Source: Microbacterium sp. No. 7 (lineage in GTDB: Bacteria; Actinomycetota; Actinomycetes; Actinomycetales; Microbacteriaceae). Taken from it: a DNA stretch of 64,000 nt. Position 1 is the first letter of the stretch, and each line of letters begins with the position of its first letter. The stretch lies in contig NZ_CP012697.1 of NCBI RefSeq assembly GCF_001314225.1, forward strand, positions 868,001-932,000, given 5' to 3'. The notes under the pieces were generated by a model, which saw only the letters and a list, made by a program, of their open reading frames with translations, ran no database searches and had not been told where the DNA came from. Positions 21,850 to 24,526 of the stretch are shown one piece after another. Position numbers and translations under genes: made by a program.

Positions 21850-22983
21850 ATGAGTGAGGTCGGTCGGCTGGGGACGGGGCAGATGCGCGAAGCGCTCATC
21901 GACACCGACGCGATCACGGCCAACGTCCGGCACCTCAAGCGGGTCACGGGCACCGAGGTGCTCTCGGTCGTGAAGGCCGACGGTTACGGGCACGGCGCCG
22001 TGCGCACGGCGCGCGCCGCGCTCGCGGGCGGCGCCGACCGGCTCGGCGTCGCGGACATCGGCGAGGCCGTCGCGCTGCGGCGCGCGGGCATCGACGCGCC
22101 GGTCGTCGCATGGCTGCACGCGCCGGGCACGTCGTTCGCCGAGGCGGCGTCGCTGGGCATCGAGCTGGGCATCTCGTCGGTCGCGCAGCTGCGACAGGCC
22201 GAGGCCGCGGCATCCGCCTCACAGCCGGTGCGCGTGCACCTCAAACTCGAGACGGGGCTGGGGCGCAACGGCATCCCGCCCGAGGACTACGGCGTCGTGT
22301 TCGCCGAGGCCGCGCGGCTCGAGCGCATCGGCAAGCTGCGCGTCGTCGGTGTCTTCAGCCACTTGTCGAACACGAGCGAGGCGGACGACCGCGCGGCTCT
22401 CGCGGTCTTCGAGGAGGGGGTCGCGGCGGCGCAGGCGCTGGGCGTGCGGCCGCGACTGCGGCACCTCGCGGCATCCCACGCCGCGATCGCCCTGCCCGAG
22501 GCGCGGTTCGACTGCGTGCGCATCGGCATCGCGATGTACGGGCTGTCGCCGTTCGACGACCGCACGTCCGCCGAGCTGGGACTGCGGCCCGCGATGACGC
22601 TGCGCGCCGCGGTCGCCGCCGTACGGCGCGTGCCCGCGGGCCACGGCGTGTCATACGGATACCTGCACCGCACGGGCGCCGAGACGACGCTGGCGCTGAT
22701 CCCGCTCGGCTATGCCGACGGCGTGCCGCGCAACGCGTCGAGCGGCGCCGCGGTGCGCATCGGCGGGCAGGCGTTTCCCGTGGCGGGACGCATCGCGATG
22801 GACCAGTTCGTCGTCGACGTCGGCGACCTGCCGGTGGCGGTCGGCGACGAGGCCGTGCTGTTCGGCGACCCGCTGCTGGGCGTGCCGCCGGTCGAGGCGT
22901 GGGCGCGCGCCGCGGACACCATCAACTACGAGATCGTGACCCGCATCGGACCCCGCGTGCCGCGACGGGAGGCGGAGCGGTGA
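21850..22983 (+). CDS. alr: Alanine racemase
   Basis: PLP enzyme that makes D-alanine for peptidoglycan; 377 aa. The PLP lysine is K42 in SVVKADGYGHGAV. GLGRNGI, the GVFSHLSN loop, HLAASHAAI, the IGIAMYGLSP strand, the catalytic-Tyr segment GHGVSYGYLHR and IAMDQFVVDV are all present. ATG 21850 is preferred because GGAGAGGG precedes it and the conserved domain starts soon after. The stop originally overlapped tsaE (GTGA at 22980-22983); an element has since been inserted there. Confidence 0.96.
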   Translation: MSEVGRLGTGQMREALIDTDAITANVRHLKRVTGTEVLSVVKADGYGHGAVRTARAALAGGADRLGVADIGEAVALRRAGIDAPVVAWLHAPGTSFAEAASLGIELGISSVAQLRQAEAAASASQPVRVHLKLETGLGRNGIPPEDYGVVFAEAARLERIGKLRVVGVFSHLSNTSEADDRAALAVFEEGVAAAQALGVRPRLRHLAASHAAIALPEARFDCVRIGIAMYGLSPFDDRTSAELGLRPAMTLRAAVAAVRRVPAGHGVSYGYLHRTGAETTLALIPLGYADGVPRNASSGAAVRIGGQAFPVAGRIAMDQFVVDVGDLPVAVGDEAVLFGDPLLGVPPVEAWARAADTINYEIVTRIGPRVPRREAER

Positions 22984-23009
22984 GCGGGATGGCGGCCTTC
23001 GAGGGCGAG
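22981..23009 (+). repeat. Left copy of a 29-bp direct repeat flanking an inserted element
   Basis: TGAGCGGGATGGCGGCCTTC plus GAGGGCGAG is repeated at 23136-23164 with one mismatch in 29. This copy starts with the alr stop codon and still encodes SGMAAFEGE, the first residues of TsaE. Confidence 0.9.
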
Positions 23010-23027
23010 TTCCGGCGGCGTGGTTGC

Positions 23028-23107
23028 CCGAACTCCTCCGATCTGTGGGCGAGCGCGCCGGATCGGGCCGAAATGGGCCAACGAGGCACCGGATCGAAGG
23101 AGTTTGG
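23028..23107. repeat. Family F inverted repeat inserted between alr and tsaE
   Basis: CGAACTCCTCCGATC near 23029 faces GATCGAAGGAGTTT near 23093. The whole insert between the direct repeats is 23010-23135 (~126 bp). Arms are shared with the copy before glmS (19066-19148). Confidence 0.85.
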
Positions 23108-23134
23108 ATGCGGGTGGCGATGCGGGTGGCGTGG

Positions 23135-23641
23135 ATGAGCGGGATGGCGGCTTTCGAGGGCGAGCGCGAGATCGGCTCCGTCGCCGAGATGGAGGCGTTC
23201 GGCCGCTCCGTCGGGGAGGTGCTAGGCGCGGGCGACCTGCTCGTGCTGACGGGGCCGCTCGGCGCGGGCAAGACGACGCTGACGCGCGGGATCGCGGCGG
23301 GTCTCGGCGTGCGCGGACCGATCCAGAGCCCGACGTTCGTGATCGCGCGCACGCATCCGTCGCTCGTCGGGGGCCCCGCTCTCGTGCACGTCGACGCGTA
23401 CCGCCTCGGCTCGCCCGCCGAACTGGACGACCTCGACATCGACTTCGCCGGGTCGGTCGTGATCGTCGAATGGGGACGCGGGATGGTGGATGCCGTGGCC
23501 GACAGCTGGTGGGAGATCGAGATCGCCCGCGGGTGGAGCGGCACGGGCGTCGACAGCGCCTGCGGCACGAGCGGCCCCGCCGCCCGCGAGATGGAGGACC
23601 TCGCCCCGCGCGAGGTCACGGTCACCCGCCGCCCGTCCTGA
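23135..23641 (+). CDS. tsaE: tRNA t6A37 biosynthesis ATPase TsaE
   Basis: ATPase of the TsaB-TsaD-TsaE complex that installs N6-threonylcarbamoyl on A37 of ANN-decoding tRNAs. The predicted product is 168 aa. The Walker A motif GPLGAGKTTLTRG is near 40, followed by SPTFVIARTH, the HVDAYRL strand and VVIVEWGRGM. ATG 23135 (MSGMAAFEGE) is chosen because the same N-terminus is preserved at the ancestral start 22980. The weakly conserved C-terminal ~35 residues are longer than in many TsaE proteins. A family B array separates it from tsaB. Confidence 0.93.
   Translation: MSGMAAFEGEREIGSVAEMEAFGRSVGEVLGAGDLLVLTGPLGAGKTTLTRGIAAGLGVRGPIQSPTFVIARTHPSLVGGPALVHVDAYRLGSPAELDDLDIDFAGSVVIVEWGRGMVDAVADSWWEIEIARGWSGTGVDSACGTSGPAAREMEDLAPREVTVTRRPS
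23136..23164 (+). repeat. Right copy of the 29-bp direct repeat
   Basis: 28 of 29 bases match 22981-23009. This copy forms the 5' end of the present tsaE gene. Confidence 0.9.
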
Positions 23642-23696
23642 CCCGCGCCGCGCGCCCCGCGCCGCCCGCATGCCGGGCGCCTCGCCCGCGCCCCGT

Positions 23697-23811
23697 GCCG
23701 AAATGGTGCCTTCCGCGCCGAGATGGCGCATTCTCTGCCGAGAGGGTGGGATTCTCGTCGACATGGTGCCCACCATCTCGGCGAGAATCCCACCATCTCG
23801 GCGAGGAAGGC
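23697..23811. repeat. Family B array between tsaE and tsaB
   Basis: Four direct units of the type GCCGAGATGGTG are followed by two inverted units, ACCATCTCGGCGAGAATCCC and CACCATCTCGGCGAGGAAG. It fills most of the gap inside an otherwise tight operon. Confidence 0.85.
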
Positions 23812-23863
23812 GCGGGGTGGGCGTGGGGCGGATGGGATGGGCGCGGGGGAGCGGGATACCCTG

Positions 23864-24526
23864 GTGAGCGTGATTCTGGGCATCGACACCTCGCTCGGCA
23901 CGGCCGTCGCCGTGGTCGAGGCCGACGGCGTGGTGCGGGCCGAGGCCGCGAGCGCGAACCCGCTCGGGCACGCCGAGGCGATCGGCGGACTGCTGCGGAC
24001 GGCGCTCGACGAGGCCGCGCAGACCCCCGGGCCGCCCGTCGTCCTCACACACGTCGCCGTGGGCATGGGTCCCGGGCCGTTCACGGGCCTGCGCGTGGGC
24101 ATCGCGGCGGCGCGCGCGTTCGCGCTCGGCCGCTCCCTGCCCGTGGTCGCCGTGCCCAGCCACGATGCCGCGGCCCTCGGCATCCTGCTCTCGGCACTGC
24201 TTGCCGACCCGTTCGCCGAGCCCGAGCGCTTCGCCGTCGTCACCGACGCGCGTCGCCGCGAGTTCGCCTACAGCGTCTACGACGGGCTCGACGACGACGG
24301 CCTGCCCGTGCGCGTCGCGGGCCCCGCGCTCACCCCGCGCGACGACGTCGACGCCGCCCTCGACGGCGCCCGCCGGCACGACGTCACGACGATCCCCGCG
24401 ACGATGATCGCCCTCGCGGCCGCCCGCGCGGTCGCCGCGGGCCGCGAGCTGACCGGCACTGAGCCGCTCTATCTGCGCACCCCCGACGTCACCCTGCCGG
24501 GCGCACCGAAGAAGGTGGGCGCATGA
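23864..24526 (+). CDS. tsaB: t6A37 threonylcarbamoyl complex dimerisation subunit TsaB
   Basis: ASKHA-fold partner of TsaD in the t6A-tRNA complex; 220 aa. ILGIDTSLGTAVAVVE opens the fold and GMGPGPFTGLRVGIAAARAF is the family signature near 62-81. VTDARRREFAYSVYDGL is further on. The GTG at 23864 begins at the family boundary with GGGGGAG upstream. The stop overlaps the rimI ATG (ATGA at 24523-24526), so tsaB, rimI and tsaD are translationally coupled. Confidence 0.95.
   Translation: MSVILGIDTSLGTAVAVVEADGVVRAEAASANPLGHAEAIGGLLRTALDEAAQTPGPPVVLTHVAVGMGPGPFTGLRVGIAAARAFALGRSLPVVAVPSHDAAALGILLSALLADPFAEPERFAVVTDARRREFAYSVYDGLDDDGLPVRVAGPALTPRDDVDAALDGARRHDVTTIPATMIALAAARAVAAGRELTGTEPLYLRTPDVTLPGAPKKVGA

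Follow-up and report, generated by a model that had tools for sequence, protein, structure and literature searches.

Palindromic inserts at the alr-tsaE junction of Microbacterium appear to split a shared stop/start while keeping a reading frame between the two genes

The MIRU of mycobacteria are repeats not known to have dyad symmetry. They have been characterized as short, apparently mobile elements inserting at start codons (Supply et al. 1997, cited in PMC12548453), and the 2025 review PMC12548453 describes an internal ORF whose coupling to the gene at -4 nt keeps the loss of expression upon insertion small. Rickettsia palindromic elements (RPE) are, according to PMC10969869, palindromic repeats that enter ORFs in frame. 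For the E. coli and Haloferax gene pairs tested in PMC10666635, reinitiation at spacings of 22-38 nt is reported as greatly diminished or abolished; overlapping genes should accordingly be uncoupled by an insert of about 100 nt that is not translated, and a frame linking the genes would be expected to re-establish the coupling. Our literature search, with subscription papers mostly outside its scope, found no account of such elements in Microbacterium.

Here, we analysed a window of 64,000 nucleotides from Microbacterium sp. No. 7, in which alr, encoding alanine racemase (21850..22983, plus strand; Pfam Ala_racemase_N and _C; stop TGA at 22981-22983), is followed by tsaE (23135..23641, plus strand; Pfam TsaE; present start ATG at 23135), both delimited by their reading frames. 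Sequence comparison locates two plus-strand copies of a 29-bp repeat at 22981..23009, putatively the old tsaE start region, and at 23136..23164, the present one, with a start-to-start spacing of 155. As originally predicted, the copies agree at 28 of 29 bases, with an exact core of 16 nt; the sole mismatch, judged by eye, falls on an Ala codon of the tsaE frame, at its third base (GCC/GCT). Within 70-nt flanks of the palindromic element between them, direct repeats with no more than one mismatch reached a length of 29 nt, far above shuffled flanks (60 shuffles: median 9, maximum 13). The left copy starts at the alr stop (GTGA, 22980-22983) and the right one is the present tsaE start (ATGA, 23135-23138), both in line with the original prediction. 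The element itself, assigned to family F (23028..23107, no strand), carries the arms CGAACTCCTCCGATC / GATCGAAGGAGTTTG; the arms used for searching span 23029-23106 (C1:891029-891106), the wider interval including one extra base on each side. While the inverted repeat was thus correctly placed between the two 29-bp copies, these do not abut its arms: a gap of 18 nt (23010-23027) separates the left copy from the element and one of 28 nt (23108-23135) the right copy, the second gap consisting mostly of a 12-bp tandem repeat in two copies (23107..23130, plus strand). The GTG on the alr stop opens a frame of 52 codons without a stop (22980..23138, plus strand), which closes with TGA as ATGA on the new tsaE start, exactly as had been proposed for a remnant of the old frame. 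Further downstream, the tsaE-tsaB spacer of the window (23642-23865) measures about 200-230 nt, most parsed relatives having shorter ones (commonest 12-49 nt), and contains repeats of a non-F family (GCCGAGATGGTG).

Junctions of alr and tsaE were searched across the genus Microbacterium (366 genomes). The resulting 210 loci comprised 100 junction stretches, 30 search loci and 80 named loci that were mostly from Microbacterium; of the 210, 192 were parsed (18 unparsed) and, with 27 duplicates removed, 165 were unique. An in-frame tsaE start overlapped the alr stop by 4 nt in 126 of the 165 (GTGA in 78, ATGA in 48) and 39 were non-overlapping, 33 of them with inserts of at least 90 nt; the junctions are best-ranked matches, the ratio of 126 to 39 is not an unbiased frequency, and inserts near the length of that in the window may be over-represented. 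Since the site is empty in 126 of 165 junctions from relatives, the comparison indicates that alr and tsaE ancestrally shared a 4-nt stop/start and that an insertion with duplication split the pair. The ancestral overlap postulated in the original prediction is indeed the common state, and relatives without an insert carry a single shared stop/start. One aberrant junction (L034) has no overlapping start in frame. Seven loci (L079, L082, L092, L097, L106, L127 and L157) encode a longer tsaE N-terminus: the overlapping start is the same, but 18-23 additional codons follow it in frame, and several of these extended N-termini begin with AGCGGGAACGC. On a contig labelled Stenotrophomonas maltophilia P13 (L228), the alr-tsaE junction has exactly the sequence seen in Microbacterium G231 (L020); the label of this contig probably reflects contamination or is wrong.

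The central observation concerns the reading frame through the inserts, which was read from the codon overlapping the alr stop and compared with an expectation from dinucleotide shuffles and random phase. Among the 39 non-overlapping junctions, 29 have a frame that closes precisely on the new tsaE start, versus 7.6 expected (P 1e-14). For the 33 inserts measuring at least 90 nt the count is 25, versus 6.4 expected (P 7e-13), and in 31 of these 33 the frame ended no more than 20 nt from that start. When each cluster was given a single vote, taken from its worst member, 19 of 26 clusters retained the exact link (5.0 expected, P 1e-9); another strict grouping, again represented by the worst members, yielded 15 of 21 (3.9 expected, P 6e-8), and the coarsest one, at 56% identity and near the shuffled level, placed 26 of the 33 inserts in one group and left 4 of 7 groups exact (P 0.009). 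The frames of L011, L012, L024, L025, L033 and L072 miss the exact link, closing either 7-16 nt upstream or else 14 nt inside; for L266 there is no link. Two loci call for comment: L220 (M. yannicii) was scored as a miss although it holds two tandem elements joined via two exact frames of 43 and 42 codons, and L130 was scored as exact although its alr ends in TAG, hence without a start codon there. The original prediction had guessed that coupling between alr and tsaE may be kept, and this proved to be its strongest part, with clear statistical support from the sequence comparison.

We consider it likely that a palindromic insert together with a duplication at the shared stop/start gave rise to this junction, and that coupling is kept via a translated linker. 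An F element would have entered the shared alr/tsaE stop/start along with a duplication of at least 29 bp, both possibly arising from a filled-in staggered break or from template switching, and the duplication would have allowed alr to retain its stop and tsaE to retain its start. The old tsaE start would now open the 52-codon frame across the element, ending as ATGA on the new one; a ribosome terminating alr would restart on the old start, read the element as a linker without peptide function, terminate on the new start and restart on tsaE. The linking frame is thus probably translated, with ribosomes passing straight through the insert, and coupling would be what selection keeps.

Three other explanations of the frame have to be weighed. 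At a distance of 5-16 nt before tsaE, 24 of 33 inserts have a GGAG or GAGG, versus 69 of 126 overlapping junctions; it is therefore possible that inserts bring their own Shine-Dalgarno sequence, that tsaE is initiated independently and that the linking frame is incidental. Such independent initiation does not predict the phase of the frame, however, and the window's new tsaE start is preceded by GGTG only and fails the strict GGAG/GAGG test, and we regard this explanation as rather unlikely. The linking frame might instead be a real small gene whose peptide selection keeps, as open, correctly phased frames with overlapping ends occur in many species. Yet in the five informative pairs, the three codon positions contribute similar numbers of differences between linking frames (2/3/3, 3/4/3, 8/7/8, 5/5/3 and 6/11/5; a sixth related pair, L029/L033, shows one difference and one gap), whereas tsaE and alr of the same pairs differ mainly at third positions (e.g. 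1/2/21 and 6/2/34). The three linking-frame peptides tested had no Pfam match at E up to 1. A conserved linking peptide was ruled against on both grounds, and the small-gene explanation is highly improbable; it is the reading frame that, judging from these substitutions, is kept and not the peptide. Finally, the inserts could be regulatory RNA hairpins that act as a terminator, as a processing site or in the manner of a riboswitch; selection would then be on structure, and the bias in frame a secondary effect. In favour of this, a long stem is present in most minimum-energy folds of 31 inserts, computed without a shuffled control, and the element arms are conserved while the spacers vary. Against this stand the 126 of 165 junctions that do without an insert and the frame phase, which structure alone leaves unexplained; moreover, Rfam returned nothing at its cut-off between 18500 and 24500 and three sub-threshold matches only, so that a known RNA family at the locus was rejected. 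We consider the hairpin explanation improbable.

Inserts recur at this junction, which favours the preferred reading of a linker kept translatable. On a rough tree built from short fragments (alr 3' and tsaE 5' ends), for which the bootstrap is not yet settled, the 33 inserts of at least 90 nt correspond to 23 gains or losses, 15 of which are forced by well-supported branches. Insert presence is clustered on this tree (23 changes versus a mean of 30.4 with shuffled labels, none of 500 shuffles being as low), and the inserts are therefore not all independent. Most of them are mutually unalignable and fall into 26 clusters at 65% identity. The alr-tsaE insert of G250 (L022) is a palindrome with another arm type (GCCGAGACCCCGTCT), like the GCCGAGATGGTG repeats of the window, and because its arms differ in type, more than one palindrome type enters alr-tsaE.

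Traces of the duplication vary among the inserts. Exact repeats spanning the stop/start measure 18 nt in L078, where by eye the repeat directly adjoins the left arm and lies 2-3 nt away from the right one, and 14 nt in L009, while in 21 of 31 inserts compared the exact repeat is only 3-6 nt. Close filled/empty pairs include L153/L127 and L013/L164, and in L013 the duplication has decayed beside its empty sister. In a comparison of 32 inserts, the 12 nt that follow the alr stop agree with the tsaE start of their own locus at 5.4 positions versus 3.7 for insert interiors (P 6e-5), with about equal agreement, 5.2 positions, to the tsaE starts of other species (P 0.34); these 12 nt look like decayed remnants of an old tsaE start. 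That the 29-bp duplication reaches into the alr end was considered but not supported (P about 0.08-0.12).

Away from this junction, duplications are rare. Testing 41 copies of three element families with 70-nt flanks and 60 shuffles per copy gave a flanking repeat above controls in only three (29, 15 and 14 nt), namely the window's F copy, a G276 copy at alr-tsaE and an F copy within an ABC-type ORF, two of them thus at alr-tsaE; a uniform target duplication of family F was rejected on this count. Within the genome of Microbacterium sp. No. 7, 2 of 15 F copies exceeded their shuffles, the copy in a coding gene marginally (14 versus a shuffle maximum of 13), and similar flanking duplications at other F elements, which the original prediction had suggested looking for, were accordingly present at only one of the 14 others. 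A G079 element at alr-tsaE with the same arm type (L167, GTAACTCCTTCGATC) has no repeat above controls in its 70-nt flanks, and by eye, two palindromes in G002 that are absent from the approximately 90% identical G001 show no long duplication, with one clean empty site. Could the 29-bp repeat then stem from a separate, later local duplication and not from the F insertion? Neither 29-bp copy reaches the F arms, and 38 of the 41 copies of the three families lack a repeat above controls; however, the alr-tsaE inserts of L078 and L009 also lie between long repeats, and without a duplication the genes could not keep both end and start, which makes a separate event unlikely in our judgement. Insertion with a 29-bp duplication stands for this site, with counterparts of 18 and 14 bp in those two loci, and is not supported as a transposition signature of F. 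We prefer to see the duplication as a survival condition at a shared stop/start rather than as a fixed property of the element, because an insertion there would survive only with that site duplicated and because flanking repeats are rare away from alr-tsaE.

The palindromes themselves are dispersed. An arm search of this genome returned 53 arm-like sites versus 3 for a reversed control pattern; at most 30 loci were fetched per pattern search, and all element copy numbers are lower bounds. Family F comprises at least 15 paired copies with nearly constant arms and unalignable spacers. Outer lengths are 78 (11 copies) and 90 (4) in family F, 79 (1), 80 (6) and 92 (4) in the G079 family, and 88 (4), 89 (1), 100 (8), 101 (1) and 102 (1) in the G276 family, so that each of the three genomes has two main outer lengths 12 nt apart (78/90, 80/92 and 88/100); by eye, the central core is CCGCGGAATTCCGCGG-like in the long length class and different in the short one. 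It is odd for a recent copy, and a point against our main reading, that the interior of the window's F element has no close sibling in the genome, its closest other match being 72% over 95 nt. Two F copies lie in frame within ORFs (names by eye), one inside a long ABC-type ORF (L047) and one (L038) inside the tail of an ORF that resembles AlkA and overlaps the following start with its stop. An F arm also lies where an rdgB-like gene encodes its N-terminal part (L056, G000 C1:1907816), with the coding sequence GGAGGAGTTCG as its mirror and an outer length of 78 nt; this may be a chance pairing or a half-element. Genomes G001 and G002 are about 90% identical over 106 kb, and G002 carries palindromes with 23-bp arms (GCGAGATTGCATTCCGCGGCCGA) in two copies (L286-L293, C5 at about 131000 and 141100) that are absent at the matching G001 sites; one of them is flanked by a short tandem repeat, like the element in the window. 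Y1_Tnp (PF01797) had no match in any of the four palindrome-carrying genomes searched, the control being positive in 5 of 14 genomes.

Other junctions were also surveyed. tsaE and tsaB overlap in 3 of 75 parsed loci (110 given), which hence provide no second test. tsaB and rimI overlap in 60 of 61 unique parsed junctions (110 loci given), by 4 nt at about 24523-24526 in the window, and none of these 61 holds an insert, unlike alr-tsaE. Of 30 loci taken for an AlkA-Ogt junction (named by eye), the motif missed 21; the 9 that were parsed are all ATGA, and their AlkA tails vary in length. rph-rdgB proved too variable as a test junction.

Overall, the coupling idea is the main find and, as far as sequence comparison can carry it, statistically strong, the duplication is not a general signature of the elements, and the insertion reading holds for this site. 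Recurrent inserts at one operon junction constitute a natural experiment in which sequence, length and peptide drift while the frame between the shared stop/starts is held, so that the value of preserving termination-reinitiation coupling in nature becomes open to a direct test. The junction would exemplify a way to open a gene overlap without losing coupling, and it carries the warning that some conserved small ORFs may be linkers without peptide function. More tentatively, Microbacterium might carry genus-wide 'translation-transparent' mobile palindromes that enter coding sequence and shared stop/starts and stay readable, characterized by genome-particular arms, constrained length (two classes 12 nt apart in three genomes) and unalignable spacers, and forming an independent counterpart of MIRU; we give this generalization somewhat less than even weight.

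Among known systems, classical MITEs resemble these elements in being short, non-coding and dispersed with terminal inverted repeats (at least 15, at least 11 and at least 15 copies in three genomes), whereas a fixed-length adjoining target duplication is absent here (3 of 41 copies; 29, 15 and 14 nt). Short dispersed palindromes with arms particular to the genome are likewise reminiscent of REP/BIME, but unlike REP/BIME with RAYT, the four palindrome-carrying genomes searched gave no match to a Y1 (RAYT-type) transposase, and a REP/RAYT identity was rejected. The 4-nt overlap corresponds to the termination-reinitiation at ATGA/GTGA overlaps, with distance-sensitive coupling, treated by Huber et al. 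(PMC10666635); in contrast to their pairs, the overlap here seems to have been opened and is present twice, with a translated-looking linker between. The two in-frame F copies within ORFs (L047 and L038) may parallel the RPE, although the striking case here is a gene junction, where the insert joins two genes instead of lengthening one protein. Compared with MIRU, the elements in Microbacterium differ in sequence between species and are palindromic, the F arms being inverted repeats, for which reason we do not claim membership. By analogy, the inserts would nevertheless work like mycobacterial MIRU as portrayed in the review: insertion falls at a coupling start codon, with uninterrupted xTGA overlaps in 126 of 165 unique junctions, and 25 of the 33 inserts that measure at least 90 nt, like the one in the window, have an internal ORF overlapping the start of the next gene by 4 nt.
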